Shown one piece after another: positions 41,841 to 59,793 of a stretch of 64,000 nucleotides of DNA. Numbering within the stretch: the stretch's first letter is position 1; every line of letters begins with the position of its first letter. Source of the DNA: Vibrio spartinae (GTDB taxonomy: Bacteria > Pseudomonadota > Gammaproteobacteria > Enterobacterales > Vibrionaceae); assembly GCF_024347135.1 (NCBI RefSeq), contig NZ_AP024907.1, positions 797,001 through 861,000 of the forward strand, read 5' to 3'. The notes below the pieces were generated by a model that saw only the letters and a list, made by a program, of their open reading frames with translations, was not told the origin of the DNA and did no database searches. Made by a program: the position numbers and the translations under genes.

Positions 41841-43418
41841 ATGACCAAAAACATTCATGACCAACGGATCCTTATCCTAGATTTTGGTTCACAATACACG
41901 CAGCTTGTCGCACGTCGTGTTCGTGAAATTGGCGTATATTGCGAACTATGGAGCTGGGATGTCGATGAAGCCGACATTCGAGAATTTAATCCGAACGGCA
42001 TCATATTATCAGGTGGCCCTGAAAGTGTGACCGAGGACAACTCTCCTCGCGCACCACAATATGTCTTTGATTGTGGCGTGCCTGTTTTGGGCGTTTGCTA
42101 CGGTATGCAGACCATGGCAGAACAATTGGGCGGAAGAGTCTCCGGTTCGACCGAGCGTGAATTTGGCTATGCTCAGGTTCAGGTGGTTCAGGAATCGAAG
42201 CTGTTTGAAGGCCTGCGTGATAGCGTCACTGAAGATAACAGTGCGCTGTTAGATGTTTGGATGAGCCATGGTGATAAAGTCATCGAGATTCCAATGGGAT
42301 TCACCCAAGTTGCACAAACGGATACTTGTCCGTACGCAGCAATGGCAAATGAAGAGAAAAAATACTACGGCGTGCAGTTCCATCCTGAAGTGACCCACAC
42401 CAAGCAAGGGCTGAAAATGCTGGAGAACTTCGTGTTTGGTGCCTGTGGTTGTGAACGTTTGTGGACGCCGAGCTCAATTATTGAAGATGCGGTTGCCCGA
42501 ATTAAAGAAACTGTCGGTGACGATGAAGTCCTTCTGGCGCTGTCCGGTGGTGTCGATTCATCGGTTGTTGCGATGTTGGTTCAGCGTGCTATCGGTGACA
42601 AGCTGACCTGTGTTTTCGTTGATAACGGCTTGTTGCGTCTTAACGAAGGCCAGCAGGTGATGGATATGTTCGGTGACCATTTTGGACTGAATATTATCAA
42701 AGTTGATGCTGAAGAGCGTTTTCTTAATGCATTGACTGGCAAGTCAGATCCAGAAGAGAAACGAAAAGTAATCGGGCACGAGTTCATTGAAGTCTTTGAT
42801 GAAGAAGCCAGTAAATTGAAAAATGCCAAATGGCTTGCGCAGGGGACCATCTATCCGGATGTCATCGAATCTGCCGCTTCTAAGACGGGTAAAGCACATG
42901 TGATTAAATCTCACCACAATGTGGGTGGATTACCAGAAGATATGGAAATGGGCTTGGTTGAACCGTTACGTGAGTTATTTAAAGATGAAGTGCGTAAAAT
43001 TGGTTTAGAGCTCGGCCTGCCATACGACATGCTATATCGTCATCCATTCCCCGGTCCGGGTCTGGGTGTCCGGGTTTTAGGTGAAATCAAGAAAGAATAT
43101 TGTGATTTACTGCGCCGCGCTGATGCAATCTTCATTGAAGAATTACACGCTGCTGATTTGTATAACCAAGTCTCGCAAGCGTTCACGGTCTTCCTTCCTG
43201 TTCGCTCGGTTGGCGTAATGGGTGATGGTCGTAAATACGATTGGGTTGTCTCGCTACGTGCCGTAGAAACGATCGACTTTATGACCGCGCATTGGGCACA
43301 CTTACCATACGAATTCCTAGGTAAGGTATCTAATCGCATCATCAATGAAGTGAATGGCATTTCCCGCGTTGTTTACGATATCTCAGGTAAGCCACCGGCA
43401 ACAATTGAGTGGGAATAA
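41841..43418 (+). CDS. guaA: GMP synthase (glutamine-hydrolysing)
   Basis: Converts XMP to GMP. The 525-aa protein has an N-terminal glutamine amidotransferase (GVCYGMQTM nucleophile cysteine, FHPEVTHT histidine/glutamate), an ATP-pyrophosphatase P-loop (LSGGVDSSV) and the dimerisation domain ending [10 protein letters not shown]. Its last 14 bases are the left attachment core of the mobile element, so the integrated element leaves the coding sequence intact. Confidence 0.98.
43405..43418 (+). repeat. attL core (end of guaA)
   Basis: TTGAGTGGGAATAA, covering the final Glu-Trp-Glu codons and stop of guaA. It is identical to the copy at 60317-60330. The exact crossover point within it is not resolvable. 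Confidence 0.85.
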
Positions 43419-43465
43419 TCCTCCTTTAAGAAAGGTCTGGCATTAACAGGCACTAAATCATACTT

Positions 43466-43492
43466 AAGTCCGCGTAATTGCGGACTTTTTTT
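43466..43492 (+). terminator. Terminator at left end of the element
   Basis: AAGTCCGC and GCGGACTT pair around GTAATT, followed by a long T run. Placed just inside attL, it would end guaBA transcripts before the integrase. Confidence 0.88.
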
Positions 43493-43597
43493 GTTTTTGG
43501 CTTAGTCATTTTTGGCAATGTCTGGCAACGCCAAGCACGGTTTGACCGTGGTATTTTGATGGGTATGATGCATCGGTAATGCCATGGATTACGTCCG

Positions 43598-43706
43598 ATA
43601 CCATGCTGAGTGTTTTTGATGGGACATGGTATTAAATTTTTATATCTATCTGTTTTGTAAAGATTAATCTCTAGTTTTTTAGAGGTGTTTCAGCATGGTA
43701 TTAAAT
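43598..43706. repeat. Direct and inverted repeats upstream of the integrase
   Basis: The 13-base sequence CATGGTATTAAAT occurs at 43625-43637 and 43694-43706, with an inverted 8-base copy ATACCATG at 43598-43605. Position between attL and the integrase suggests integrase arm sites or an autoregulatory operator; this is inference. Confidence 0.55.
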
Positions 43707-43725
43707 AAGAATAATAGGTCGAAAC

Positions 43726-44913
43726 ATGCTGACTGATACCAAGCTACGCAATCTCAAACCCAAAGATAAACTATACAAAGTCAATGACCGTGATGGCCTC
43801 TATGTTGCTGTCACCAAAGCGGGATCTATTTCTTTTCGCTACAACTACTCGATCAATGGCAGGCAAGAAACCATCACCTTTGGCCGCTACGGAGTAGGGG
43901 GTATCACGTTAGCAGAAGCGCGCGAGCGTCTCAATGAAGCGAAGAGAATGGTTATTGATGGAAAGTCACCGGCCAAAGAGAAAGCCCGTGCGAAGGCGAG
44001 AACGAAAGATGCTGAAACATTTGGTGCCTGGGCTATAAAATGGCTGCGTGGCTATCAGATGGCTGATTCTACCCGGGATATGCGTCGTTCAGTCTATGCC
44101 CGAGAACTTAAAGAAAAATTTGGTAACTGGAAGCTTACAGAAATTACCCATGAAGATCTGCGAGCACTGACTGACGCAATAGTAGAGCGTGGCGCGCCCG
44201 CAACGGCTGTACACACGCGTGACATTGTACTCCAGGTGTATCGGTGGGCAATTGAACGGGGCCAGAAAGTTGAGAACCCGGCAGACTTGGTGAGGCCCGC
44301 AAGTATCGCTCGATTTGAGCCAAGAGACCGAACGTTAACACCGGCTGAAATCGGTTTGATGTATCGTTATATGGAAAAAGTTGGAACCACACCTTCGATT
44401 CGTGCTGCGGTAAAATTGCTATTGCTGACTATGGTACGTAAAAGCGAATTAACCAATGCAACTTGGAGTGAAATTAACTTTAGCGAAGCGCTGTGGACGA
44501 TTCCGAAAGAAAGAATGAAACGACGAAAACCTCACTTGGTGTTTTTGTCACGCCAGGCGATGGACATTCTTATTGCCTTGAAGACATTTGCCGGTGGGTC
44601 TGATTACATTCTTCCTTCCCGTTATGACTCTGATGCTCCCATGAGTAGTGCGACGATGAACCGAGTTATGGATTTGACATACAAGGCCGCTCAAAAGGAC
44701 GGTCAGTCACTAAGTAAGTTTGGGCCGCATGACCTGCGTCGAACAGCGAGTACCTTATTGCATGAAGCTGGATACAACACGGATTGGATAGAAAAATGCC
44801 TTGCGCACGAACAGAAAGGGGTGAGGGCAGTTTATAACAAAGCCGAGTACCGAGAACAGCGCGCGGCCATGTTGCAGGATTGGGCTGACATGATTGATGA
44901 GTGGACTCGTTAA
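43726..44913 (+). CDS. int: P4-type tyrosine recombinase (integrase)
   Basis: Site-specific recombinase that would insert and excise the element at guaA. The 395-aa protein has an N-terminal arm-binding DUF4102-type domain (about residues 1-90), a core-binding SAM-like domain (about 100-190) and a C-terminal catalytic domain. The visible catalytic residues are Arg in LLLTMVRKSELTNA, the HxxR box GPHDLRRTAS, His in CLAHEQKG and Tyr in YNKAEYREQR. It points inward from attL and converges on the reverse transcriptase gene 26 bases away. Confidence 0.95.
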   Translation: MLTDTKLRNLKPKDKLYKVNDRDGLYVAVTKAGSISFRYNYSINGRQETITFGRYGVGGITLAEARERLNEAKRMVIDGKSPAKEKARAKARTKDAETFGAWAIKWLRGYQMADSTRDMRRSVYARELKEKFGNWKLTEITHEDLRALTDAIVERGAPATAVHTRDIVLQVYRWAIERGQKVENPADLVRPASIARFEPRDRTLTPAEIGLMYRYMEKVGTTPSIRAAVKLLLLTMVRKSELTNATWSEINFSEALWTIPKERMKRRKPHLVFLSRQAMDILIALKTFAGGSDYILPSRYDSDAPMSSATMNRVMDLTYKAAQKDGQSLSKFGPHDLRRTASTLLHEAGYNTDWIEKCLAHEQKGVRAVYNKAEYREQRAAMLQDWADMIDEWTR

Positions 44914-44939
44914 AGCTCAATTACGCTAGTTAATGTTGA

Positions 44940-46079
44940 TTATATATTTCTATTACGAGATAGCTTTTTCTTAATTTTATCATTTGCAGATTTTTTTTCT
45001 GAGTTTATAACCATAGCTACTCTGCCACTAATTCTTTTTAGAATATATACTTTTGAACTAAATTGGGTTAGCTCTTTCTTTGACTTAACTTTCCGATATT
45101 TTCTAGCGTATTTTTTTGCCTCAGACTCGCTTATTCTACAAGTTATCAAGGATAATTGTTCTTTTAATTTTCCTGCTTTTGAGTAACCTTGTTGCTGAAG
45201 AGTGTTTATGTGCCCGAGAATTGAACGGTATTTTTTTATAATGTCTTCTATATTAAAGTTATTATCTACCATATGTTCATATGTGAATAGTAACTTCCTC
45301 ACTTGAGATATTCTCTTATGGGAAGGATTAGTCTTTTTTGAGTTAACAGTGACATCGTGTACAGAAAGCCGAGATGAACACGAACTAAAATGGCTTTTTT
45401 TCTTAGATCTATGAGGTTTTACCCCAGATTTTCCGAATATTCGATAGATTTCTGATTTTAGATGAGGAATTAACTCATTGAATTCTTTCTCATCAGAGCT
45501 AATATGAATATCATCGTAGTAACGTGTATATCTTAGTCCCTGAACTTGGCAATATTTAACAAGTTCTGGCTCATCTCGGTAGAATACTAGATTGGCTATT
45601 TCACCACTTAAGGGACTGCCTTGAACTAAATAGCCTTCTTTTGTACTTAGCTCGCTAAGTGCATTTGATACTTTAGGAGGAAAGCAGAAAAAGTGTTGAA
45701 AAATACGGTTGACTTCTTTGATACTAATTGACGGGAAAAAATTTCTTATATCCTCAGACATTAACATGCGTGAATTAATATGAACTTTTGCATTGTCGAT
45801 ATAACTTTTTCCTATTTGTCCTGCTGTTATATAGTCAGGATGCTCAACCTTATCAAAAATTCTTGATTTTATGGAATCTAAAACGGCACGAAGTTTTGGT
45901 TTTGCTTTGTATGTAACTCTTAGACTGCCATCATCTTTCTCAATTTTATTAGCTACGATATAGTCATCGTTTGATGATACTATGAGCTTCTCAAGATCTT
46001 GTAACGATAAATTCAATAAATTAGCTAAAGCTTCGATACTACCAATTGGTTTCTGTGTGTATTTAGGCTGTAGATTCAC
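44940..46079 (-). CDS. Retron-type reverse transcriptase
   Basis: RNA-dependent DNA polymerase of the retron/group II-related family, 379 aa from a GTG at 46079. Retron-specific NAxxH is present as NAKVH (residues 96-100). Palm motifs follow: DIRNFFPSIS (Asp110), QGSPLSGEIAN (153-163) and the catalytic YYDD (187-190; YADD in most retrons). The region usually holding VTG reads VTV (243-245), followed by basic RNA-binding-like sequence. It overlaps the HTH gene by 17 bases, indicating coupled translation. The gene is clearly AT-richer than the core. Retron RTs copy an adjacent ncRNA into multicopy DNA; anti-phage function is inferred. Confidence 0.88.
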   Translation of the reverse strand: MNLQPKYTQKPIGSIEALANLLNLSLQDLEKLIVSSNDDYIVANKIEKDDGSLRVTYKAKPKLRAVLDSIKSRIFDKVEHPDYITAGQIGKSYIDNAKVHINSRMLMSEDIRNFFPSISIKEVNRIFQHFFCFPPKVSNALSELSTKEGYLVQGSPLSGEIANLVFYRDEPELVKYCQVQGLRYTRYYDDIHISSDEKEFNELIPHLKSEIYRIFGKSGVKPHRSKKKSHFSSCSSRLSVHDVTVNSKKTNPSHKRISQVRKLLFTYEHMVDNNFNIEDIIKKYRSILGHINTLQQQGYSKAGKLKEQLSLITCRISESEAKKYARKYRKVKSKKELTQFSSKVYILKRISGRVAMVINSEKKSANDKIKKKLSRNRNI

Positions 46080-46350
46080 TTTTTACGATTTCTCTCGCTA
46101 TTGATTTTAGACTTTCTGTAAATTCGGAGAAAGGACTATCAGAGGGCTCTTCACACATCAAAATAAGTATATTTAAAGGAACATTAAGTGCTTTACTGAT
46201 TCGAGATAATGATGATAAAGAAGGATCTCGCTTTTCATTTTCTATTTTGGATAGATAAGATTTATCCATATTAGCTTCTTCAGCCACCTGATTTAAAGAT
46301 AGTCCACGTAGTTGCCTGAATTCTTTAATAGTTTTACCGATCGCTAACAT
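46063..46350 (-). CDS. Xre-family HTH protein of the retron-like cassette
   Basis: A 95-aa protein with a Cro/CI-type HTH at about residues 6-60 (IKEFRQLRGLSLNQVAEEAN, then YLSKIENEKRDPSL) and a short helical tail. Its 3' end overlaps the reverse transcriptase start by 17 bases. In published retron classifications some types pair the RT with a small HTH protein (type VI, as I recall). It could repress the cassette promoter or act with the RT; no direct evidence separates these. Confidence 0.82.
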   Translation of the reverse strand: MLAIGKTIKEFRQLRGLSLNQVAEEANMDKSYLSKIENEKRDPSLSSLSRISKALNVPLNILILMCEEPSDSPFSEFTESLKSIAREIVKSESTA

Positions 46351-46413
46351 AATTATATCTCTTAAATATTGGAGGATTTATTTGGCTGGTTGCACAGATC
46401 TAGTGAGCTTTTG

Positions 46414-46632
46414 TTACTCCAAGTCAATGAAACCAGCCGCCAATTTTATCAAGCTCAATACCTGAACAACCACTGACAACCACTTCATTTTGTTGGCCCT
46501 ACTTGCCACTTTACTCATATTCTCAAGCTCTTCGATAGAATTATCGATTTTCTCAAGTGTGCTTTTATCTACTGTATTAACGCATTTTTCACGAGCCTCT
46601 TTAAGACGCTCGATCGATTCTTTCAAATTCAT
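46414..46632 (-). CDS. Small coiled-coil/membrane-helix protein of the retron-like cassette
   Basis: A 72-aa protein that I do not recognise. Residues 1-45 are charged and helical, likely coiled coil (MNLKESIERLKEAREKC). Residues 49-71 form one hydrophobic segment (KWLSVVVQVLSLIKLAAGF), long enough to span or dock on the membrane. An AGGT site lies 8 bases before the ATG. It is the first gene after the structured region and is followed by the HTH and RT genes on the same strand. A role as membrane-damaging effector is inference from size, hydrophobicity and position. Confidence 0.65.
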   Translation of the reverse strand: MNLKESIERLKEAREKCVNTVDKSTLEKIDNSIEELENMSKVASRANKMKWLSVVVQVLSLIKLAAGFIDLE

Positions 46633-46637
46633 ATAAT

Positions 46638-46982
46638 ATTACCTTATCTAAGTTGCACTAATCGGATACAGGATGTACCCCCTGCCAATTTGCACATCGT
46701 GGCCGAATAGAAATACAGTAGACAAACCAACCAATACCCCCAGAGAAGTGTATCTCTGGTTCTCCCCCTGCCTTCATCAAAGTTATTCAACTAAGCGATA
46801 AGGACCATCGACGTTCGATTTGAGATTTGGCTCATCACGACCGCGTGCCGATAAGAATCCTTATGTGGGCTGGAAAGATAGTTCATTTTGAATTACTACA
46901 AATGAACGGCTGTTAGGCCATATGTCAGGCTCACAATTAAGGTAATTTTTGAAAGAGCGTTACAGATGATTTCATCTGCACT
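46638..46982 (-). ncRNA. Candidate retron msr-msd non-coding RNA region
   Basis: No gene occupies this stretch, but five inverted repeats do: CAGATGA/TCATCTG (46963-46978), GTTCATTT/AAATGAAC (46881-46907), ATAAGGA/TCCTTAT (46798-46864) enclosing smaller hairpins, CCAGAGA/TCTCTGG (46740-46759), and a 7-pair stem at 46664-46680. A longer-range 9-base match, TAAGGTAAT (46938-46946) with ATTACCTTA (46638-46646), could be the a1/a2 pair, though it overlaps the next gene's ribosome site. The location 5' of the RT operon fits a retron RNA. Boundaries are approximate. Confidence 0.6.
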
Positions 46983-46988
46983 ATGGAT

Positions 46989-47017
46989 AGAATAAATGGG
47001 GGTGGACTATTTGTCAA
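46989..47017 (-). promoter_or_regulatory. Strong sigma-70 promoter of the retron-like cassette
   Basis: On the minus strand, a perfect -35 TTGACA (47012-47017) and -10 TATTCT (46989-46994) are separated by exactly 17 bases. Transcription would begin near 46982, just before the first hairpin of the structured region. Confidence 0.75.
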
Positions 47018-47038
47018 CCCTTAATTGATCAATAGTCC
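47004..47038. promoter_or_regulatory. Dyad over the cassette promoter
   Basis: GGACTATT and AATAGTCC form a perfect 8-base inverted repeat with 19 bases between, enclosing the -35 element. It could be an operator for the cassette's HTH protein, or a hairpin ending the upstream gene. Confidence 0.5.
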
Positions 47039-47056
47039 TGAATGAAATTTTAGCGG

Positions 47057-48130
47057 CTAAATTTTCTCATTAGTTTTGGACGTTGGTAGCTGAAATTCTT
47101 CTCGAATCGTTCCCAAGGCCTTAGACACTGCCTGGTTTGACAAAGGCTTACCTGTGATTTCACCCAGCAATATACCAATTTTTTCATTAGAACGGTTTTG
47201 TTTACGAAGAACCAACATGCGTTTTTTATTGTCGGTTAGTCGATAATCTACCATCTTGCGTGCTAAGTTGCGCAGCTCGGGTACATTAGTTGGATTCAGT
47301 GAAGAGTCCAGCATGTAGTGGTAAAAGTACTCATCAATTAATTTATCTCCGGACTTAGCGTTATGACGGTCTGGATGTGCGATTTGGCGTCGTAGTCTCA
47401 AGACTTCTTGCTCAAATTGTTCTGAAGAGCGTTTGGCTTGCTTATATAGAGAATTCCAAGAACCATCATGAAGCTTGGGGCGATGGGTTAGACAGTAATT
47501 CGTACTCAGATCCGGTCGCTTTTTCTTTCCTGCTTTTTCATCATTGTCACGATCATTGTTTTCTCTCTCAATATATCCGTGTTTTGTCCATGTGTGCATG
47601 AACTGTGAAAACTCTGTTGGGTTTCCACACAGGGCGCATAGTCGTGTTTTTTTATCCGCTTTTAAACTGATATCAGGCGCTAGCTTTGATCTGTTGGTTT
47701 TTTTTCCTTCACAAATCATAAGCAATGATTTGAGCATATCTTGAGTCGATATGAATAGTATGTCTTGCTCTGTGTGGGAGCTCTTATCAACAAAGTCGCG
47801 TAAATAAAAGTGAATTTGGTCGGCCGTATAACGAAAACCTCTCAACTTGATGAGGTCACTATAGTTACACTTTTCTCTTGAGATAGGGCAAAAGGACAAA
47901 TACTGGTTTGGAAGGCTACTTAAGTATTCCGATACCACGGGATCAATCACCTGTTTAATCAAGTTTATGATGTTGTGGCTTTTAGACTCTTCCGAGTATG
48001 AATGCCATTTCTCTCTAAAAATGCGAATGGCATTTGCCACAGAGTTGTCAGAATTCTCCCATACAGGGATATAAAACTGACCTAGTCGTTCTAACGCATC
48101 CATCTCAGTTTCAAATATTTTCATGTCCAA
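47057..48130 (-). CDS. Hypothetical zinc-finger protein with C-terminal HTH-like region
   Basis: A 357-aa protein of unknown function. A putative metal site is LCALCGNPTEF around residue 170 and YCLTHRP about 45 residues later, separated by a Lys/Asp-rich linker. The C-terminal 60 residues (RSNEKIGILLGEITGKPLSN onward) look like a DNA-binding HTH. It is upstream of the retron-like cassette on the same strand and divergent from the alpA-like gene. It may be a regulator of the element; I cannot name a family. Confidence 0.7.
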   Translation of the reverse strand: MDMKIFETEMDALERLGQFYIPVWENSDNSVANAIRIFREKWHSYSEESKSHNIINLIKQVIDPVVSEYLSSLPNQYLSFCPISREKCNYSDLIKLRGFRYTADQIHFYLRDFVDKSSHTEQDILFISTQDMLKSLLMICEGKKTNRSKLAPDISLKADKKTRLCALCGNPTEFSQFMHTWTKHGYIERENNDRDNDEKAGKKKRPDLSTNYCLTHRPKLHDGSWNSLYKQAKRSSEQFEQEVLRLRRQIAHPDRHNAKSGDKLIDEYFYHYMLDSSLNPTNVPELRNLARKMVDYRLTDNKKRMLVLRKQNRSNEKIGILLGEITGKPLSNQAVSKALGTIREEFQLPTSKTNEKI

Positions 48131-48209
48131 CTTTTTTGTCCAATGATTAGCCTAATCTACAGGCAACTCCTGGCATTATCAACTCAAGAATGTTGAAAAG
48201 GAGAGGGTT

Positions 48210-48437
48210 ATGAATCCATCAATGACAAACAAAACGCTGATAAATCGCAAGACCTTACTCAGCATGATCCCTTTGTCTGATCGAACCATCTATAACCTGG
48301 AACAGCGTGGTGAGTTTCCTCGTCGTATTGTTCTGACCAGCCGAAGTGTTGCTTGGGACCTAGCTGAGGTTGAGAACTGGATAGAAGAAAAGCGCAGGTC
48401 TGCGTTAAAAGCCGCAAGACCCGGTTTTATTTGGTAA
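48210..48437 (+). CDS. AlpA-family transcriptional regulator
   Basis: A 75-aa MerR-like HTH protein (LINRKTLLSMIPLSDRTIYN, then RGEFPRRI and WDLAEVENWIEEKR), typical of AlpA/excisionase-like regulators of P4-type islands. It follows AGGAGAGG-like sequence and is 12 bases before repA. It may control repA, the integrase or excision. Confidence 0.88.
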   Translation: MNPSMTNKTLINRKTLLSMIPLSDRTIYNLEQRGEFPRRIVLTSRSVAWDLAEVENWIEEKRRSALKAARPGFIW

Positions 48438-48449
48438 GTCTGAGTTCAC

Positions 48450-49445
48450 ATGACGCTTAAAGATGTAACGGATGTTCAGGCTAGGGGAACCACTCGGCAA
48501 AAAAGTGCCTCGGGTGCCAGCGATAAACTAGAGCTAAGCACGAAATATATAGACAACATCATAGCAATCCAGGAGTGCAGTGCTCAGGAGGCTAATGAAC
48601 TCGGTTTTATTGCACGGCTTTTGATTCAAGCAACCATACCGCATAGCAAACCCAAATCGAGTGAGTGGAGTCGCAAGAATGGTAATTTCACAATGCACAT
48701 GATGGCCCCCTCATCGGTAGGTTTGCCTTACGGTTGCTATGCACGTTTGCTTCTGGTTTGGATGACCACTCAAGCAGTAAGAAATAAGTCCAGATTGGAT
48801 AAAGGTTATATCGATGAGACAGAGGCACGCAGGCTTGAATTAGGAAATTCTCAGAGAAGTTTTATGGCCGAACTAGGGTTATCGGGAACTGGGGGGAAAG
48901 ATGGTTCTATTCCTCGTTTGCGTGAGCAGATGAGCAAACTTTTTAAAACCACCATTAGCGTTATGTTTACGGAACATAATGAAGGTGATGAATATATTTC
49001 TGAGGATGAGATTGGTGCCAGAGTAGCGGATGTTTCACATATATGGTGGAGCACAAAGCACCCAGATCAAAATTCATTATGGGGCTCTTGGGTAGAACTG
49101 TCGCCAAAGTTTTTTCAACTGATAACCGATAAACCAGTTCCTCTAGATATGAGGGTTTTGCGGTTGATTAAGCGCTCTCCTATGGCTCTCGATATATATT
49201 GCTGGGCAACATATCGAGTCAGCTATTTAAAACGTTCAACAGTCATTCCTTGGGAAGGGCTAATGGACCAAATAGGTGCCAATTATCCTAATACTGCTCA
49301 GGGGCATCGAGATTTCAGAAAACGGTTTCTCGATGGGCTTAAAAAAGTTCAATATGCATGGCCAGAGCTAGATGCTACTTCAACCGAAAAAGGATTGCTT
49401 TTGAAACCAAGTGCTCCACAAGTACCTCGACGGACAAAGCGATAG
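48450..49445 (+). CDS. repA: Plasmid RepA-type replication initiator
   Basis: A 331-aa protein resembling the plasmid-encoded RepA family (Pfam Plasmid_RepA-like). Central features are GLPYGCYARLLLVWMTTQAV, then SMRVLRLIKRSPMALDIYCW-type sequence and the winged-helix-like C-terminal region. It would bind the iterons directly downstream to start replication of the excised element. It follows the alpA-like gene closely. Confidence 0.82.
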   Translation: MTLKDVTDVQARGTTRQKSASGASDKLELSTKYIDNIIAIQECSAQEANELGFIARLLIQATIPHSKPKSSEWSRKNGNFTMHMMAPSSVGLPYGCYARLLLVWMTTQAVRNKSRLDKGYIDETEARRLELGNSQRSFMAELGLSGTGGKDGSIPRLREQMSKLFKTTISVMFTEHNEGDEYISEDEIGARVADVSHIWWSTKHPDQNSLWGSWVELSPKFFQLITDKPVPLDMRVLRLIKRSPMALDIYCWATYRVSYLKRSTVIPWEGLMDQIGANYPNTAQGHRDFRKRFLDGLKKVQYAWPELDATSTEKGLLLKPSAPQVPRRTKR

Positions 49446-49511
49446 AGTGGGTGGAATGAAACAGTATGTAAGCCCCATTCTTGATGTTATTAAGCTTGGG
49501 TATTTAGAAAG

Positions 49512-49611
49512 TTATCCACGCATGTTCTGTCCCGCTTTAAAGGGGGTATTTTGCGCATGTTCTGTCCCGGCTTACGCATGTTTTGTCCCGGAGTGCGCAT
49601 GTTCTGTCCCG
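49512..49611 (+). repeat. Iteron array with DnaA box (candidate oriV)
   Basis: Four direct repeats of CGCATGTTCTGTCCCG lie at 49519-49534, 49554-49569, 49575-49590 (one mismatch) and 49596-49611; the last three are spaced 21 bases, two helical turns. A DnaA-box-like TTATCCACG (49512-49520; consensus TTATCCACA) abuts the first. AT-rich DNA follows. This is the layout of an iteron-controlled plasmid origin. A short open frame across it is not a gene. Confidence 0.82.
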
Positions 49612-50135
49612 CGAAGTGCCAAAAAGTTTTTTAATAACAGGTGGTTGTAGAACTCCCTATAGTACTTTCCTGTAGGTATACCTATATAAAAATTAACCTG
49701 TAGTTAAGCAAACAAATATTGTGGATAAGATTTATAAAAATAAATTGCTTAAAACTGTCAATGAAATCATTTTTTGGGAAGTTATGTATTTTTAACTTCA
49801 TGAAAATAAAATGTTTTTTATTCTTTTTTTCTTGGCGTCTAAACATTCATTGACACTTGAGGGGCAGTTAAACACGAAGGCTTTGAATTTAGCCTAGAGC
49901 TGAAAGTGTTAGGAAAGCTGTGTTTTTCGGTGTCGTGATATTGAGTAAAGCCAACACACATAAATCGCTGTAAGACCGTTATTTTAGCGCTATTCAGTCG
50001 CTATAAGTGCGCTGTCATACCGCTATAAGTGTCGGACTTATTGAGTAAACATAGTTTACACAGGAATAAACAGTTAAATGCAGAGAAATGCACACGGGCA
50101 TGCATAACTTTCCGTGATAAAACCAAAGTTGAAAT
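49612..50135. other. AT-rich stretch between iterons and oriT
   Basis: No gene is seen. It contains an AT-rich segment (49680-49860), fitting an origin unwinding region, then two copies of CGCTATAAGTG (49999-50009 and 50021-50031) and a GTAAAC/GTTTAC dyad (50045-50059). Confidence 0.55.
49999..50059. repeat. Phased repeats and dyad before oriT
   Basis: CGCTATAAGTG occurs twice, 22 bases apart, followed by GTAAAC-ATA-GTTTAC. The helical phasing suggests a protein-binding site, perhaps controlling the tra genes. Confidence 0.45.
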
Positions 50136-50245
50136 GCGGGCAGGATGTGTGAAGTAGGCACACCATGCAAGCATGGCGAAGCCTCTTCACTTTGGACTTA
50201 TTCGCACCTTCGGAGCTCAACGTTAATCCTGCCCTGCGGGGCCAG
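50136..50245 (-). other. oriT: IncP/RP4-type origin of transfer (oriT)
   Basis: The order of elements matches RP4 oriT as I recall it: GCGGGCAGGATGTGTGAAGT at the nic end, a GAAGTAGG block, a CCATGC/GCATGG hairpin (50163-50176), TTCACT...CTTATTCGCACC, GAGCTCAACG, and AATCCTGCCCTGCGGGGCC. The complement reads ATCCTG/CCC, so nicking would fall near 50140/50141 on the minus strand. traJ and traI follow at once, as in RP4. Confidence 0.85.
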
Positions 50246-50261
50246 AGAGAGGAGACAAAGC

Positions 50262-50636
50262 ATGGCGAACAACACGAACAAGAGCACTAGAAAGAACAGC
50301 CCACCGATTAAGGTTTACTGTCTGCCAGAGGAGCGTGCGTTGATTGAATCGCTGTCCGCGCAAGCCGGTCTTAGTATTTCTACTTATCTACGTGAAGTCG
50401 GCCAAGGTTATCGCATTCAAGGTGTTACCGATGTTGAACAGGTACGCGAACTGGTAAGAGTGAATGGTGACTTAGGGCGTTTGGGTGGTTTGCTTAAGTT
50501 ATGGCTTAGTAATGATACCAAGGTAGCGAATGTGGGAGTCAATACAATCTTAGCGGTGCTTAATCGTATTGAAGCGACGCAAGATCAAATGAGCACGCTT
50601 ATGGAGTCTATTCTTCGGCCGAGGGCGGACCAATGA
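50262..50636 (+). CDS. traJ: Relaxosome oriT-binding protein TraJ (IncP type)
   Basis: Ribbon-helix-helix-type protein that binds oriT and recruits the relaxase. The ATG at 50262 with a GAGAGGAG site gives 124 aa (RP4 TraJ 123); the longer frame reads through oriT. The sequence PPIKVYCLPEERALIE and ...VNGDLGRLGGLLKLWL match RP4 TraJ strongly. Its stop overlaps the traI start by 4 bases (ATGA). Confidence 0.93.
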   Translation: MANNTNKSTRKNSPPIKVYCLPEERALIESLSAQAGLSISTYLREVGQGYRIQGVTDVEQVRELVRVNGDLGRLGGLLKLWLSNDTKVANVGVNTILAVLNRIEATQDQMSTLMESILRPRADQ

Positions 50637-52393
50637 TCGCCAAGCATGTACCGATGCGTTCACAGGGCAAATCTGACTTTGCTGGCCTGGTGAATTACAT
50701 CACCGATCACCAGAGTAAAGCACATCGACTTGGTAGTGTTCGTTTAAATAACTGTGAAGCGGAAACCGTGCGCGATGCGATCAGTGAGGTGTTGGCGACT
50801 CAGTTTAAGAACACCCGAGCGAAGAGTGATAAAACCTATCACCTGATAGTGAGCTTCCCGAGTGGTGAGTGGTTAGAAGCGAATACCTTGGCTGCGATAG
50901 AAGAGCGCATTTGTCAGGGGGTGGGCTATGGGGAGCATCAGCGTGTCAGTGCGGTACACAACGATACGGACAATCAACATATCCATATCGCCATCAATAA
51001 GATTCATCCTACACGCAACACAATCCATGAACCGTATTACCCGCATAAGAAGCTAGCGGAAATGTGCGAGGCCATCGAGCAGGACTTTGGTTTGCAGCCG
51101 GATAATCATATACCGCGCAAGCGAGGGGCCGAATCACGGGCGATGGATATGGAGCGGCATTCGGGTATTGAAAGCTTAGTGGGTTGGGTGAAGCGCGAAT
51201 GTATGAACGAGATCAAATCAGCCAATAGCTGGCAGGCGTTGCATCGGGTCATGCAGGACAATGGTTTGCAGTTAAGAACCAGAGGAAATGGGCTAGTGAT
51301 CGTTGCCGATGGTGAAGCGATCATCAAAGCGAGCACCTTGGGGCGTGAGTTTTCTAAACCCAAACTCGAAGCGCGCCTTGGTCCCTTTGAAGTAGCTGAG
51401 ACGGATTCAGTTAAGCCGAGCCGCCAATACACACATCGACCGGTTCGCTTGAAGGTGAATACCACCGAGCTATATGCCCGTTATCAAGCTGAGCAGAAAC
51501 GTGCCGCAGCGAGTAAGTCGCAAGCCCTTGAACAGGCCCGCCGTGATAAAGATCGACAGGTTGAAAACGCCAAGAGAAAAGGGCGAGGCCGTCGTGCGGC
51601 GATTAAGTTAACTGGCAGCAATAAGCTTACTAAGAAGCTTTTGTACAAACAGGCCAGTGATGCATTGAAAAGCGATCTTGAACGCATCCACAAACGTTAC
51701 CAAGAGCAACGGCAAACGATATATCAAAGCAATAAACGCCAAGCCTGGGCGGATTGGTTAAAAAGCCAAGCATTGCAGGGAGATAGCGAAGCCCTCAAAG
51801 CGCTACGTAGCCGAGAAGCGGCACAAAAGCTTAAAGGCAACACGCTAAAAGGGGATGCAGTTCAGACCGAGCCCAAAGCAACGGTCGATACGATTACGAA
51901 AAAAGGCATCATTATTTATCGAGCAGGTAACAGTGCTGTGCGTGATGATGGTGAGCGTCTACAAGTGTCGACGGCTTCCAACCAAACCAGTGTTTTAGCT
52001 GCGCTAAAGGTAGCAATGGAGCGTTACGGTGATCGTATTACCGTGAATGGCTCGCCTGAGTTCAAGGCGCGAGTGATCAAGGCGGCAGTAGATGGCAACC
52101 TGTCTATAAAGTTTGCCGACCCAGGGCTAGAGCGTCGCCGTCAGGCATTAATAGCCCAGAGCAAAAAGGCCAAACGGTCAGATAAGCCTGGTGTGTTACC
52201 GATTGGCAAAGTGCCACCTTCACGCCGTGGCCGGTTGCAGAATCTATCTCAGTTAGAGGTTTTAGCTATTCAGTCAGCCCCTGTAACTGAAAAAGCGGTG
52301 GTCATGCCAGCATTAGAGCAGCGTAAAGCCAAGCTGCAAGCTGAGCAGGCAGCTAAAAAAGCGAAACGACAACATAAGAGCCGATCACGTTGA
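50633..52393 (+). CDS. traI: MOBP relaxase TraI (IncP type)
   Basis: Nicks oriT and pilots the strand into the recipient. The 586-aa protein begins MIAKHVPMRSQGKSDFAGLV, nearly RP4 TraI, with the nicking tyrosine at residue 22 and the metal-binding histidine triad region HNDTDNQHIHIAINKIHPTR. The C-terminal third is basic and less conserved. It is shorter than RP4 TraI (732 aa). Translation is probably coupled to traJ. Confidence 0.95.
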   Translation: MIAKHVPMRSQGKSDFAGLVNYITDHQSKAHRLGSVRLNNCEAETVRDAISEVLATQFKNTRAKSDKTYHLIVSFPSGEWLEANTLAAIEERICQGVGYGEHQRVSAVHNDTDNQHIHIAINKIHPTRNTIHEPYYPHKKLAEMCEAIEQDFGLQPDNHIPRKRGAESRAMDMERHSGIESLVGWVKRECMNEIKSANSWQALHRVMQDNGLQLRTRGNGLVIVADGEAIIKASTLGREFSKPKLEARLGPFEVAETDSVKPSRQYTHRPVRLKVNTTELYARYQAEQKRAAASKSQALEQARRDKDRQVENAKRKGRGRRAAIKLTGSNKLTKKLLYKQASDALKSDLERIHKRYQEQRQTIYQSNKRQAWADWLKSQALQGDSEALKALRSREAAQKLKGNTLKGDAVQTEPKATVDTITKKGIIIYRAGNSAVRDDGERLQVSTASNQTSVLAALKVAMERYGDRITVNGSPEFKARVIKAAVDGNLSIKFADPGLERRRQALIAQSKKAKRSDKPGVLPIGKVPPSRRGRLQNLSQLEVLAIQSAPVTEKAVVMPALEQRKAKLQAEQAAKKAKRQHKSRSR

Positions 52394-52630
52394 TGTGATG
52401 GCAAAGGAATCGACGGAAGCCCTAACCGCTTCGGTTGGTAATGACACCGATGTTTAACCCTATTTGACCGCGCGTTTAACGGTGTCGCGCTGGTCGGGCG
52501 CCGAGATAGTAAGTGGCGAGCTAGCTCTGTACAGGCCCACATTCACCGCTGGTAACGGCAGGAGTAGAGATCAAGTTTCTACAGGTTGGTGAATGCAACT
52601 TTTAGTCATAACAACTAAGAGTAATTAACC

Positions 52631-53394
52631 ATGCTAAAACGAAAAATTTTAGCGGCTAAAATTCCCGTGCTTGCCATCTCCTTGGCGTTAAACCTTTCTA
52701 ATCCTGTATATGCGGGGATTCCGGTTGCTGATGGTACGAATCTAGTTCAGAACATCATGTCGGCAATGGAAGCTGTTACACAGACTGCTAAACAAATTCA
52801 GCAGTATCAAACCCAGTTGCAGCAGTACGAAAATATGCTGCAAAACTCGATGGCCCCGGCTTCTTATATTTGGGATCAGGCACAGCGCACCATCAACGAT
52901 TTGAACCAGGCGACCAACACGCTCGCCTATTATCAAAACCAGATCGGTAGCCTCGATGCGTACCTAGGAAAATTTCAGGACGTGGCTTATTACCGCAGTT
53001 CGCCTTGTTTCTCGGCGGTGGGATGCAGCGATGCCGAACGCGCCGCAATGACCGAGAACCGACGCTTGGCGTCCGAATCGCAGAAGAAGGCCAACGACGC
53101 ACTGTTTAAGAGTCTGGAGCAGCAGCAAGATAACCTGGAAGCCGATGCCCGCCAGCTCAATCGCCTGCAATCTGGTGCTCAGAGCGCGGACGGCCAACTG
53201 GCTGCGATTGGTTACGCTAATCAGCTTGCTAGCAACCAGGCCAACCAGCTCCTGCAAATCCGAAGCCTGTTGATTGCTCAGCAGAATGCCGTTGGCACTC
53301 GAATGCTGATCGCGAAGCTCAATATCAAGCGTCCCGTGAAAGGTTGTTTGATATGGGCGAGCCAACCAACCGTTCGGAAAACAAGGGGTTTTAA
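52631..53394 (+). pseudogene. trbJ: Conjugal transfer protein TrbJ, frameshifted near the C-terminus
   Basis: Periplasmic mating-pair protein (VirB5-like) with a signal peptide ending at about residue 28 (NPVYA) and a long helical coiled-coil body. The frame runs to about 53305, then continues out of frame to 53428 with unlike sequence. Shifting one base near 53301-53310 restores a family-like end, DREAQYQASRERLFDMGEP and stop at 53392-53394, just before trbK. One missing base is the simplest explanation; it could be a real mutation or a sequencing error. Confidence 0.78.
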
Positions 53395-53396
53395 TC

Positions 53397-53594
53397 ATGA
53401 AGAATATCCCCCGAGTTTTTATCGTTAGTGCGTTGGCCTCTTTTGTCCTGGTAGGATGCGGTGAAGATGACGGGCCAAAGCCTGCAACGATCAACTGTAA
53501 CAACCCGAACCTGACGAAAGAGCAGAAGGAAAAAGGGAACTGTCTTTGGAATATGGGCGAACCCACGGTTCGCTCCAAGAACAAGGGGTTCTAA
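53397..53594 (+). CDS. trbK: TrbK-like entry-exclusion lipoprotein
   Basis: A 65-aa lipoprotein with signal and lipobox LVGC (cysteine about residue 21), and the position between trbJ and trbL where IncP elements carry trbK. RP4 TrbK blocks entry of related plasmids. Its last 13 residues, MGEPTVRSKNKGF, nearly duplicate the restored TrbJ end MGEPTNRSENKGF, which is odd. Sequence identity to TrbK outside the signal is weak. Confidence 0.7.
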   Translation: MKNIPRVFIVSALASFVLVGCGEDDGPKPATINCNNPNLTKEQKEKGNCLWNMGEPTVRSKNKGF

Positions 53595-53596
53595 TC

Positions 53597-55142
53597 ATGA
53601 GCAAGATATTCATTCGACTTATGATGACTCTGAGCATTTTACTGACTTCGCAAACAGCATCAGCGGCCATTGAGCCTAATGGTGTCCTAGATGAAGTGGC
53701 CGTGCGTTTCATGACGGCAAGTGCTACTTGGGGTACGGTAATTACAAACTATGCCGCCTGGCTATTCTGGACGCTGGGTACGATATCCCTTGTTTGGACT
53801 GGAGGGACCTTAATCCTTAAGCAAGCGGATATAAGAGAGTTTTTTGCCGAGTTCGTGCGCTTCATTTTGACGTTTGGTTTCTTTCTATGGCTACTCAGAA
53901 ACGGCCCAGAGTTTGCCACGTCAATTATCGACTCATTGAGAATGATCGGTGCTCAAGCCGGTGGCCTTTCGAGAGATCTAACCCCGTCAGAGCCTATTAG
54001 TATTGCGTTCGACATTATTGTGAAAGCTGGTGAGTCCTACAGCATCACAAGTCCGATAGATAACTTGTCTATCTTCTTAATCACGCTGGCAATTTTGGCG
54101 TGTATGGCGGTAGTGGCGGCCAATGTGTTGTTGGCCTTGGTGACGGCTTGGATATTAGTCTATGCCGGTGTTTTCGTGCTGGGGTTTGGTGGTTCGCGTT
54201 GGACTTCAGATATAGCAATCAACTACTTCAGAAGCGTATTGGGTGTTGCTTTGAAGTTGATGACAATGACGTTGCTTATTGGCATTGCCATGTCGATCAT
54301 GGACGGTTTCTATGCCGATCTATCCAATGATGCCCCCATGCGTGAACTGCTGGTGATCTTTGTCGTTTCACTGGTTCTCGTGATGCTCATTCACTCTGTT
54401 CCCAATGTGATCGCCAGCCTGGTTCCTGGAGGCGGTGCAGCAGCAGGTGCTGGCAGTATCAGTGCCGGGGCCATGGCCGGAGCGGCTGTTGCTACTGGTG
54501 GTATGGCTGCCGGTGCCGCAATGGCTACCACCGGCGGTGCGTCTGCTATTCAGGCTGCATTTGCAAAAGCGGGTGAGAACGTAGCGAATAATACGGACGT
54601 TATGTCGAGCCTGGGCGGTGCATTTAATAGCGGTGGTGATTCTGACGAGGCTGGCTCCTTCTCCCAAGCTTCCGGTCAATCTTCTAGCGGTGGCGAATCC
54701 TCTGGCGGCTTTAAAGGTAGCGCTGTAAAAGCGGGGCGTATTGCTGCGGATACCAGTGCGAATTTGATAAAGGGAATGGGTGATATGGCCGGGGATAGAA
54801 TCAGCGGCACTACCGGAGGTCGTCTAGCTAGTTCGATCCGAAACAATATGAAAGATAACGCGGATGATGACGATAAGGAGGGGGACTGATGAGGCTTCCC
54901 CTGCATTTGACAACGATAGCTTAGGCGGTGGCGGCACTGGCTGGATGAATCAAACTGGCGGCTTTGATGGCCTATCCAGTGAGGATCAAGAAGAAGCCCG
55001 CCAAGCACACGCAGAATGGCAAGAGCGCGATCCGGAAAAGCACACCTTCGACATTGAATACTACGTTTCATACGCTCAGGAACGCCAGCAGGAGCGCAAC
55101 GAAGAGGTTGCCAGTTTTGTTAAAAAAGGCCGCACGACCTAA
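53597..55142 (+). pseudogene. trbL: Conjugal transfer membrane protein TrbL, frameshifted in a G run
   Basis: Polytopic inner-membrane component of the mating pore (VirB6-like). A signal-like N-terminus and about six membrane segments (to residue 280) are followed by a Gly/Ala/Ser-rich tail. The frame stops at 54887-54889 after a GGGGG run (54880-54884). Removing one G makes it continue in the frame of 54864-55142 through GTDEASPAFDNDSLGGGG to EEVASFVKKGRTT, a typical TrbL tail. The membrane core is intact, so partial function is possible. Confidence 0.78.
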
Positions 55143-55162
55143 CTAGATAAGGATTACTGATT

Positions 55163-55417
55163 ATGGAGTTTAGCTTTCCACCTCAAAACCTTGCGGAGGT
55201 ATTTGGTTTCTTTGCAGTGATGTTCATTGTGATGCTGGCCTTCTACTTTTTGGGGCAGTGGCTGCACAACACCGGACACGGTCCGAAGATGAAAGCTATT
55301 GCCGACAAAATGGAGGTTTTCCAAAACAGGTTGGCCGGGCGTGCCTACAAGGATATGACGAGATCGGTTGATCAAATCGACAAAATGAGACGCTGGCCGT
55401 TTGGTCGACGCAAGTAG
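55163..55417 (+). CDS. Small membrane protein after trbL
   Basis: An 84-aa protein with one strong membrane segment (about residues 13-33, FGFFAVMFIVMLAFYFLGQWL) and a basic C-terminal tail. It follows trbL by 20 bases and is probably co-transcribed. I do not recognise the family; position suggests a transfer-associated role. Confidence 0.65.
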   Translation: MEFSFPPQNLAEVFGFFAVMFIVMLAFYFLGQWLHNTGHGPKMKAIADKMEVFQNRLAGRAYKDMTRSVDQIDKMRRWPFGRRK

Positions 55418-55429
55418 TTAGAAAGCACA

Positions 55430-55455
55430 CGGGCCGGTGATGGTGCACCGGCCCG
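55430..55455 (+). terminator. GC-rich hairpin after the trb remnant
   Basis: CGGGCCGGTG and CACCGGCCCG form a perfect 10-base-pair stem with a 6-base loop, followed by a short T-containing tail (CATTTTC). Confidence 0.65.
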
Positions 55456-55489
55456 CATTTTCACATACCACCTGTCAGAGAGGTGACAC

Positions 55490-55717
55490 ATGACAATCAC
55501 ACATAATATCGAAATTCAGCACGCAATTCATCAGGCAGCAATCAAGCTGGCCTCCCTGGAATTCATCGATCAGGAAACCGCACAGCAGATTTCGCCTGTC
55601 GCAGAAGCGGTCGCCAATATGTTTACGATACTCTACTACCAAGCTGAAACTGGCCGAGCGACGCCGGAGGACTTCGAGCAGGCGCTGGTCACTATTCGAC
55701 AAGTGACTATGAACTAA
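55490..55717 (+). CDS. Hypothetical 75-aa protein
   Basis: A soluble, helical 75-aa protein (MTITHNIEIQHAIHQAAIKL...) preceded by a GAGAGGTG site. It lies between the trb remnant and a traJ remnant. No family recognised; base usage resembles the transfer genes rather than the AT-rich cargo. Confidence 0.6.
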   Translation: MTITHNIEIQHAIHQAAIKLASLEFIDQETAQQISPVAEAVANMFTILYYQAETGRATPEDFEQALVTIRQVTMN

Positions 55718-55734
55718 GGCAAACGACGTGGATG

Positions 55735-55962
55735 ATAAGACTAAGCGCATAACTTACAACGAGGAAGAGCAGTACAGCTATTAAGATTTACTGCTTAGTG
55801 AGGAAAATGAACATATCGAGTCGCAAGCAAAGCGAGTAGGTATGAATGCTGCAGGTTACCTGCGTGAGGTTGGTTAGGGTTACAAGAATACGGGATAGTA
55901 AATTGTGATAAGGCCTGGGAGTTGATTTGAATCAACTCCCAGGCCTTGGCCGTTTAGGGGGC
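55735..55962 (+). pseudogene. Degraded second traJ-like gene
   Basis: Translated pieces IKIYCLVSEENEHIESQAKR, GYLREVG(stop)GYKNTG and GLGRLGGLL, in different frames and with stops, match successive parts of TraJ upstream in the same element (IKVYCLPEERALIE, YLREVGQGYRIQG, LGRLGGLL). No relaxase follows. This is a broken relic of another transfer module, next to the cargo ATPase. Confidence 0.72.
55910..55947. repeat. Near-perfect 38-base palindrome in the traJ relic
   Basis: Two 18-base arms, AAGGCCTGGGAGTTGATT and its exact complement, flank a 2-base centre. No T run follows. It lies within the broken traJ, and may have arisen by template switching during decay. Confidence 0.8.
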
Positions 55963-56161
55963 TATTGAATCGATGATAGGACTATGATCTATCTATTTTT
56001 ATGTCGTCGGCCAGTTCTTCCTTTGCCCTTTCATATCTATGCATGGTTTACTCTTAGGTTACGCTGGAATGCAACATCAGCCGAGGAAAAATTTCAAGAA
56101 TATACTATAACTACCCAATCAGTAAATTTTATATGGATTGAATCAGGGAAGGGGTTTTATT

Positions 56162-58261: not shown

Positions 58262-58292
58262 TTCATAATCCTAAAAATTTAATCATGGTATG

Positions 58293-58341
58293 AATGTAAA
58301 CCTTCCCTTATATGTAACTAATTAGGTGGGAGGTTTACATT
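58293..58341. terminator. Large hairpin after the ATPase gene
   Basis: AATGTAAACCT and AGGTTTACATT are perfect 11-base inverted copies, extended by CCC/GGG with a one-base bulge, around a roughly 20-base loop. It probably ends the ATPase transcript, though no T run follows. Confidence 0.5.
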
Positions 58342-58451
58342 AGCAAACAATGGGGCATAACCTTATTAGATCATTAGTTCTAATTTGCAGGTTTAAGATT
58401 GAAACTTCTATGGATTAGTACCCGCACAAGAGGAAGCAAACATAGTAGTGA

Positions 58452-58691
58452 TTAGTATAAAATTTGCGAAGTAGCAAAATTAAATTGCTGTGTAGTTTTG
58501 ATGTCCCAGCGAGTCTGTGATCGACTTGATGGATTTGTAAAAAGAATTATTGAGAAGGCTAAAAAACTGGAAAACTCTTTGGAGTAAGAAACCCCAAACA
58601 ATCGAAAGTGAACACCCACAACAAAAAGATCTAAACAGTTAACAATGATTAAGCTCATAAAGCCGAGTATCGTGCAAAGATTTCCTACCAT
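58452..58691 (-). CDS. Possible small membrane protein
   Basis: A 79-aa frame with a strong GAGGGGG ribosome-site-like sequence before its ATG and two hydrophobic segments (about residues 5-28 and 42-55). It is unrecognised. The gene call rests mostly on the ribosome site and hydrophobic pattern. Confidence 0.4.
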   Translation of the reverse strand: MVGNLCTILGFMSLIIVNCLDLFVVGVHFRLFGVSYSKEFSSFLAFSIILFTNPSSRSQTRWDIKTTQQFNFATSQILY

Positions 58692-58788
58692 AGTCACCCC
58701 CTCTCGAATGCCAGTTATTGAATCGAGTCCCCGTTAATCTCCTTAACTTTTCAATCTTTCGATTGAATGGGGCGGGACAAGTAATAAA

Positions 58789-59439: not shown

Positions 59440-59572
59440 CGTAAACCTCTTAAGTCTTCAAATTTTCATAACATTTTATTAGTGCGCGTGCGCATTTGTC
59501 TGGTAAAACGCGTATGCACATTTAATAAATCCATTACCTCAGCCATATTTAGTAAAGATATTGATCAATAAG

Positions 59573-59618
59573 CACTTTATCAGAGTGTTACTGAAAGGGC
59601 TAACACTCTGATAAAGTG
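59573..59618. repeat. Perfect 18-base inverted repeat
   Basis: CACTTTATCAGAGTGTTA and its exact complement flank a 10-base loop, between the pentapeptide gene and the small basic protein gene. It lacks integron attC core motifs and a clear T run. It could be a terminator or a structured RNA element. Confidence 0.75.
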
Positions 59619-59793
59619 TGCATTGGTACCAAGACCTTGCTGAAAGTAATCAGCTAGTGACTTTCATGAATAAAAAAATAGGCCAAATAGCCTGTTGGTT
59701 ACCTGTACTGTAACTCACTTAGGGTAAAAATGTGTTTTAGGTTTTGGTAACAAGAGTCAGTACCGCTTACTCTGACTCGATATTGAGGTAGCG

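Follow-up and report, generated by a model that had tools for sequence, protein, structure and literature searches.

A type VI retron of Vibrio spartinae whose RNA may keep its small protein untranslated

Results

Genes and class of the cassette

The cassette investigated here lies at 44940-47038 of a 64,000-nt stretch of Vibrio spartinae DNA (contig NZ_AP024907.1, hereafter the window); all coordinates are positions within this 64-kb window and the whole cassette is on the minus strand. An earlier note had described it as a four-part retron-type cassette comprised of a near-consensus promoter, a structured RNA, a 72-aa small protein (SP), an Xre helix-turn-helix (HTH) protein and an overlapping reverse transcriptase (RT), and each of these parts was located where it had been placed, on the minus strand. 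Comparison with related loci leads us to propose, tentatively and with somewhat less than even confidence, a type VI retron whose RNA, by base-pairing to the start region of SP, would prevent translation of SP as long as no phage infects. The genes are as follows.

46414-46632, minus strand: SP, 72 aa, SP_VI
46063-46350, minus strand: HTH_VI, Xre family, 95 aa
44940-46079, minus strand: RT_VI, retron-type reverse transcriptase, 379 aa, GTG start

The HTH and RT genes overlap by 17 nt, and no gene beyond SP, HTH and RT was found in the operon by reading of the open reading frames (ORFs). The proteins matched the PADLOC profiles RT_VI (E 1.6e-69, 232 bits; next RT_V, 2.3e-53), HTH_VI (2.3e-25) and SP_VI (5.1e-8). 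The subtype search thus supported the four-part retron cassette, with RT_VI at the top of the PADLOC profiles and other retron RTs after it, and the type VI trio is complete in the order SP-HTH-RT. The part of PMC8541194 available describes the type VI retron as an RT, a DNA-binding protein and a small auxiliary protein, with a transmembrane segment predicted in one of them. Since all three proteins match the type VI profiles and this description, the gene content is already known and the cassette is, judged by its profile matches, a new copy of a described type of retron. The SP_VI match and the same portion of PMC8541194 contradict the statement that no described system adds a small protein ahead of the HTH gene, and SP as a novel addition was ruled out on these grounds. 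A function in anti-phage defence is likely for a locus of this class; no bench data on type VI anti-phage activity were found in the open-licence PubMed Central literature.

The RT contains NAKVH in region X, in agreement with the NAxxH signature reported earlier, and VHD at the start of region Y. The catalytic core is YYDD and not YADD as the earlier note had read it. Among 63 RT homologues the core was YYDD in 47, YADD in five, YVDD in three and YLDD in one, the pattern being not found in seven; the region Y triplet was VHD in 36, VHG in seven, VTG in five, VHN and ITG in two each, and IHD and LHN in one each, with the pattern not found in nine. The window RT therefore has neither of the usual retron features VTG and YADD. 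According to the portion of PMC6868368 consulted, VTG is present in 14 of 16 validated retron RTs and YADD is the usual core, although in the validated retron Ec48 the T is replaced by H and the core of Ec107 is YCDD. Because of these two cases, VTG and YADD are taken as usual features and not as strict criteria.

Distribution and locus sets

Of the 63 homologues, the closest named ones belong to Vibrio parahaemolyticus, the V. harveyi group, V. alginolyticus and Oceanimonas baumannii. Among genomes sampled from the class, 20 of 360 gave a match to RT_VI with an E value of 1e-45 or lower; the SP profile was matched in 5 of 369 genomes. Both counts include the window's own genome, and 11 of the 20 RT_VI hits (L104-L114) were longer frames and were left out of counts. 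Conservation of SP beside the RT, on which the earlier note had staked its proposal, was borne out in loci found by RT alone, where SP and HTH precede the RT in 6/6 loci of the genome_contigs set and in 3/3 fetched plasmid loci.

The comparison set was comprised of 19 loci: the window, L009, L010, L011, L013, L014, L033, L058, L060, L061, L083, L085, L086, L088, L091, L093, L094, L095 and L103. It includes plasmids of Alteromonas, Pseudomonas and Psychrobacter. Since these loci were chosen for carrying SP, HTH and RT, the set is no test of SP conservation beside the RT. Duplicates (L012, L028, L029, L057, L003) were removed before counting. Fifteen representatives (the 19 minus L009, L088, L093 and L095) were used for permutations, and 17 loci (the 19 minus L010 and L060) for leader folding. 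Loci with shorter SPs (L096-L098) were read and scanned for boxA outside the scoring, and L121, L123, L125 and L126 were also left out. The duplicate L029, in a genome of the window's order, is a close copy of the L011 locus, which is from a metagenome-assembled genome called Halobacteriovorax; its RT match has one in-frame TAA.

The small protein

The AlphaFold2 model of SP (mean pLDDT 76) contains helices at residues 3-17, 23-42 and 45-67, the last being hydrophobic with a 19-residue mean of 1.95 in the window. Maxima across the 19 loci ranged from 0.77 to 2.15, and the charge from -6 to +4. The SP_VI profile matched 16 of 17 aligned homologues; the window SP gave no match above cut-off in Pfam. 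From the sequence, SP is a predicted toxin. That SP is instead a structural or regulatory partner, with the HTH protein or a gene elsewhere supplying the effector, is consistent with this charge range, the modest hydrophobicity and the lack of a PDB fold match within a cut-off of E 0.001. The window's operon holds no other gene to fill that role, however, and at the SP position L096-L098, L122 and L124 encode short lysine/arginine-rich hydrophobic peptides which look like membrane-acting toxins; a non-toxic SP is considered improbable.

Promoter, operator-like palindrome and HTH protein

The promoter claimed in the earlier note was recovered, and a palindrome overlaps its -35 element.

46989-47017, minus strand: sigma70-type promoter, TTGACA at 47012-47017, 17-nt spacer, TATTCT at 46989-46994
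47003-47017, minus strand: operator-like palindrome TTGACAAATAGTCCA, overlapping the -35 element, 5/7 palindromic pairs

A 15-bp palindrome around TT[G/C]ACT-N3-AGT.AA scored at least 5 of 7 in 15 of the 19 loci (best of one or two sites per locus), against 2.35% of 1148 15-mers starting TT[GC]AC in a background taken from the fetched loci, test loci included. It usually lies 56-61 bp before boxA, and 77-81 bp before it in L033, L058, L060, L093, L094 and L103; in L060, L094 and L103 a second TTGAC is present at the usual place. Because six loci have the palindrome about 20 bp further upstream, it is not merely the -35 box. The exact window 15-mer TTGACAAATAGTCCA occurs once in the genome, at the retron promoter. 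The HTH model (pLDDT 90) matches the folds of the DNA-binding regulators C.AhdI, C.BclI and SinR. Since a palindrome is located at the promoter and the fold matches these proteins, the HTH protein is read as a likely autorepressor, with 47003-47017 as its predicted binding site.

Leader RNA and boxA

The leader at 46635-46981 (347 nt) folds at -102 kcal/mol, with 1 of 100 dinucleotide shuffles as stable (z -2.44), which supports the earlier description of a structured RNA. The features read along it, and one behind SP, are listed in the order of transcription.

46963-46978, minus strand: 5' hairpin CAGATGA-AA-TCATCTG, boxB-like in position; stem sequence varies among loci and pairing is preserved
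46947-46958, minus strand: boxA-like GCTCTTTCAAAA, compared with GCTCTTTAACAA of the genome's own rRNA leaders
46938-46946, minus strand: anti-Shine-Dalgarno (ASD) segment AUUACCUUA, with complementarity to the ribosome-binding site of SP
46926-46934, minus strand: a1-like segment GUGAGCCUG, pairing with a2, bulged, in the window leader fold; the best hit of the ungapped scorer lies elsewhere
46908-46919 (HP2) and 46881-46907 (HP3), minus strand: two msr-like hairpins, from leader folds
46762-46877, minus strand: msd-like long stem-loop, its base conserved and its top variable, from leader folds
46740-46759, minus strand: hairpin HP4, CCAGAG..CUCUGG, from leader folds
46725-46734, minus strand: HB5 UUGGUUGGUU, leader-side strand of the SP-bracketing helix
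46699-46705, minus strand: a2-like segment CGGCCAC, in the 5' strand region of HP5 (46660-46708)
46638-46646, minus strand: SP ribosome-binding region UAAGGUAAU, the ASD partner, maximum pair probability 0.93 in the leader fold
46382-46391, minus strand: HB3 AACCAGCCAA, behind the SP stop codon, the HB5 partner

The RNA element had earlier been placed upstream of SP; this holds for the structured leader, and a further conserved RNA element is located between SP and HTH at 46382-46391. Folds inspected by eye showed a plan common to the 19 loci: a hairpin, a boxA-like sequence, a linker, two small hairpins, a variable long stem-loop, mostly a further hairpin, and then HB5, a2, HP5 and SP. By analogy with retron RNAs, the two hairpins would be msr and the long stem-loop msd. 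No retron RNA family of Rfam was found in the window stretch or in eight related loci. Tandem repeats were read by eye in the msd-like stem-loop, about ten of 16 bp in L088 and several of 8 bp in L061; the length of the stem-loop can therefore vary by repeat number.

Leaders of rRNA operons are known for boxB-boxA antitermination by Nus factors, and their layout, a hairpin and then boxA near the RNA 5' end, is present here. Positions of boxA in the 19 loci were assigned by eye, and the core GYTCTTT was found in 17 of them, the exceptions being L091 and L095. The boxA GCTCTTTAACAA has 14 copies in the window's genome; the three sites inspected are all in rRNA operons, two upstream of 16S (L115, L117) and one between tRNA genes and 23S (L119). 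A hairpin precedes boxA in L117, the single rRNA leader read (by eye). Among 16 other retron loci scanned, seven contain boxA, all of them phage retrons (L015-L018, L022-L024), and nine gave no hit. In these seven, which are on viral contigs, no HTH gene separates SP from RT, and the leader has the same hairpin and boxA. By analogy with rRNA leaders, the retron boxA may recruit Nus factors.

Long-range helices

Ungapped complementarity was scored in fixed windows for cognate and non-cognate loci (15 representatives, 20000 permutations) and against 1500 composition-matched shuffles. For the ASD and the SP start region the cognate sum was 256.5 versus 199.4 ± 10.0 when permuted, and for HB5 and HB3 it was 361.5 versus 258.6 ± 16.3; in both cases none of the 20000 permutations and none of the 1500 shuffles was as good. 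The sum for a1 and a2 was 263.0 versus 229.5 ± 10.6 (35 of 20000 permutations; 0 and 1 of 1500 shuffles). When one strand was reversed as a control, the sums were 183.0, 276.5 and 228.5 for ASD, HB and a1 with a2, respectively. These results show that complementarity is preserved across the set between the ASD and the SP start region and between HB5 and the sequence following the SP stop; between a1 and a2 it is preserved more weakly. The sequence changed with pairing kept in HB of L085 (GUUUGC/GCAAAC) and L103 (GUUCGC/GCGAAC), and the ASD pair covaries likewise between the window (AUUACCUUA/UAAGGUAAU), L094 (GUGCUCUU/AGGAGCAC) and L103 (CUUUCCG/CGGAAAG). The best HB hit in the 260-nt leader starts 88-109 nt before the SP start in 19/19 loci. 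For the window alone, 3 of 300 shuffles were as good for the ASD with the Shine-Dalgarno (SD) sequence and 20 of 300 for HB5 with HB3. The a1:a2 pairing around the msr hairpins is supported weakly over the set and forms in the window only with a bulge, the hairpins and stem-loop being judged by eye.

Two other approaches were less informative. A first duplex test with RNAduplex returned large internal loops and was uninformative; a scan of the linker against 150 nt gave mixed positions, most loci without single-locus significance, and led to the idea of the ASD. HB5:HB3 as the canonical a1/a2, with the RT copying the SP gene, was dropped as the main interpretation because msr-like hairpins and a stem-loop lie upstream with their own a1:a2 candidate, and copying of SP is kept as a less probable reading.

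Eight loci outside the set served as hold-outs, among which L015/L018 and L023/L024 are close pairs. At the 5% level, five of eight passed for the ASD with the start region, the shuffles at least as good per 1000 being 43 (L102), 5 (L015), 23 (L016), 30 (L017) and 6 (L018), and six of eight passed for the bracket helix, with 0 (L102), 10 (L016), 2 (L017), 7 (L022), 1 (L023) and 0 (L024) per 300. In L015-L018 the ASD pairing covers the AUG. The helix bracketing SP reaches 19 nt in L023 and L024, and in L015 and L016 a terminator-like hairpin lies right behind it.

The hold-outs also bear on control at the protein level, in which SP would be produced constitutively and kept inactive by a complex of RT, multicopy single-stranded DNA (msDNA) and HTH, with the inhibition ended by a phage factor that binds or breaks the msDNA; type IX Kva2 is the precedent. 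The position of HTH between SP and RT in 6/6 loci found by RT alone fits such a complex. In the portion of PMC13405049 available, retron-Kva2 operates by sequestration and its winged-helix protein grips the msDNA stem-loop, and a part of PMC12548924 likewise has the RT, non-coding RNA (ncRNA) and RT-DNA complex sequestering a toxic effector. However, L015-L018 and L102 have no HTH between SP and RT, yet each of them passes the ASD test, and three (L102, L016 and L017) pass the bracket test too. In addition, the SP start region has an RNA partner preserved across the set, the HTH protein resembles a classical DNA-binding regulator, and the promoter palindrome would suffice to explain its presence. 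Sequestration is thus regarded as unlikely, though a serious contender.

Folding and accessibility of the SD region

In the 17 leaders folded, the maximum probability of ASD:SD pairing was 0.62-1.00. Averaged over the 19 loci, the probability that SD region and ASD window pair was 0.49 with the true sequence versus 0.08 with the ASD window shuffled. None of 20 ASD shuffles reached the observed pairing in 14 of 19 loci, and 1-3 of 20 did so in L009, L011 and L058; L091 and L095 show no SD-ASD pairing because theirs falls on the start codon.

Alternatively, the helices could have no role beyond RNA processing or the start of reverse transcription, with a1:a2 and HB marking RNA ends or RNase III sites and the overlap on the SP start a by-product of the position of a2. 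HB5 adjoins a2, where reverse transcription should start if a1:a2 is canonical, and shuffling the ASD raises mean predicted SD accessibility little. Against this, the best-scoring ASD match lies in most loci on the SD or the start codon despite differing sequence, and it covers the AUG in L015-L018. A role in processing alone is judged improbable.

In L122 the SD region has a complementary stretch 424 nt ahead of SP, equalled by 1 of 500 shuffles, and several of the loci with shorter SPs have an SD partner in a local hairpin (by eye). No significant bracket helix was found in L122 or L124. Because L096-L098, L122 and L124 are without boxA, the SD of L122 is open, and a significant bracket helix is missing from L122 and L124, the claim of an RNA-lock architecture, a prediction, extends to the window's group and partly to phage retrons like L015-L018.

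Observations against translational control by the RNA

Several results weigh against an RNA lock on SP. The pairing windows were selected after inspection of the loci, and significance belongs to the set, many single loci being not significant. Shuffles as good for ASD with SD numbered, per 300, 103 in L010 and L058, 72 in L060, 63 in L083, 54 in L085 and 50 in L014; those for HB were 132/300 in L011 and 194/300 in L013, and those for a1 with a2 were 108/300 in the window and 296/300 in L086. With HB scored against the whole 260-nt leader, 61 of 300 shuffles were as good in the window and 91-176 of 300 in the five closest relatives. In L091 and L095 the pairing sits on the start codon instead of the SD. 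Hold-outs failed the ASD test in L022, L023 and L024 (95, 543 and 662 per 1000) and the bracket test in L015 and L018 (22 and 28 per 300).

Mean SD accessibility was 0.33 with the true ASD versus 0.36 with it shuffled; the ASD:SD pairing is therefore specific and a net block of the SD is not demonstrated. When the window leader, SP and intergenic region were folded together as a nested structure, the probability of ASD:SD was 0.0 and that of HB 0.70. The two helices cross, so that they require a pseudoknot or two states and compete unless the pseudoknot forms. The L122 fold leaves the SD open (0.83), and no GYTCTTT was found in the 450-500 nt before the shorter SPs of L096-L098, L122 and L124. 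The hydrophobicity of SP is modest (1.95 in the window, 0.77 in L010). Lastly, in the text available of PMC12548924, defence by Retron-Sda1, an HTH-bearing locus, came from its HipA kinase and not from the HTH, ncRNA or RT.

Surrounding element

The cassette is located in an integrated element behind guaA at 43400-60330, delimited by the direct repeat AACAATTGAGTGGGAATAA at 43400-43418 (the guaA 3' end) and a copy at 60312-60330 with 17 of 19 bases matching. Between the repeats are an integrase, the retron, a RepA_C protein, a relaxase, TrbL and a type IV secretion system protein. A 357-aa ORF upstream of the retron promoter (47057-48130) matched nothing in Pfam, NCBIfam or PADLOC. Four 21-nt copies of CGCATGTTCTGTCCCG..., the last three head to tail, lie at 49519-49616, downstream of the RepA_C gene; they are possibly replication iterons. 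The element also encodes a 707-aa AAA_13 protein (56138-58261; Pfam E 3e-17), possibly a second defence gene; the AAA_13 domain occurs in anticodon-nuclease-like defence proteins.

Discussion

The comparative evidence points to control of SP translation at the RNA level together with transcriptional autorepression by the HTH protein, rather than or besides protein sequestration. In the mechanism proposed, the HTH protein would repress the promoter through the palindrome, and boxA would recruit Nus factors, which would prevent premature termination of the long untranslated RNA. The a1:a2 helix extended by ASD:SD would form one stem with two functions, priming of reverse transcription and closure of the SP start site. 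HB5:HB3 would be an alternative or pseudoknotted state, which could sense SP translation because a ribosome at the SP stop codon would open the helix. Phage infection would disturb the reverse-transcribed complex and free SP translation, and the SP released is predicted to act on the cell's own membrane, aborting the infection.

A broader and more doubtful proposal takes in type VI and HTH-less phage retrons together. Here the RNA itself would be the antitoxin: the a1:a2 stem would run over the effector's ribosome-binding site, assembly of the RT-RNA complex would shut effector translation and the second helix would report translation. Phage damage would then flip a translational riboswitch rather than release a stored protein, with boxA shielding the RNA from Rho.

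If true, the RNA lock would imply a retron class working by control of effector translation. The RNA map (boxA, ASD, a1, msr, msd, HB5, a2) marks what to clone for msDNA and activity, and the analysis predicts an HTH operator. New from the 19 loci are the operator-like palindrome, the hairpin with rRNA-type boxA, the ASD segment and the covarying helix between the leader and the sequence behind SP. In open-licence PubMed Central papers, neither a boxA, ASD:SD pairing, SP-bracketing helix or operator of a type VI RNA nor a description of how the type VI effector is held and released was found.

Comparison with known systems

The cassette shares its protein families, the SP-HTH-RT order and NAxxH with the type VI retrons of the Mestre 2020 classification and PADLOC, and its gene content is identical. 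The leader resembles that of rRNA operons in that the promoter is followed by a hairpin and then a GCTCTTT boxA, with which a long, structured and untranslated RNA begins, the difference being a retron boxA GCTCTTTCAAAA versus GCTCTTTAACAA in the genome's rRNA operons. In type I toxin-antitoxin systems translation of a small hydrophobic toxin is blocked by RNA. The retron is similar in that a small hydrophobic protein has a start region complementary to RNA; it differs in that the complementary segment of the window is located in cis, on the leader that precedes SP in its own transcript, and is part of the retron RNA. C.AhdI, C.BclI and SinR are small regulators acting at sites near promoters; they share the fold of the HTH protein with 28-41% sequence identity over the matched part, and their partner genes differ. 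Finally, as described in the portion of PMC13405049 available, the type IX retron-Kva2 is likewise an operon of RT, ncRNA, a small protein with a DNA-binding fold and a separate effector, whereas its effector is a HEPN RNase, its DNA-binding-fold protein is a winged-helix protein and its control is by protein sequestration.

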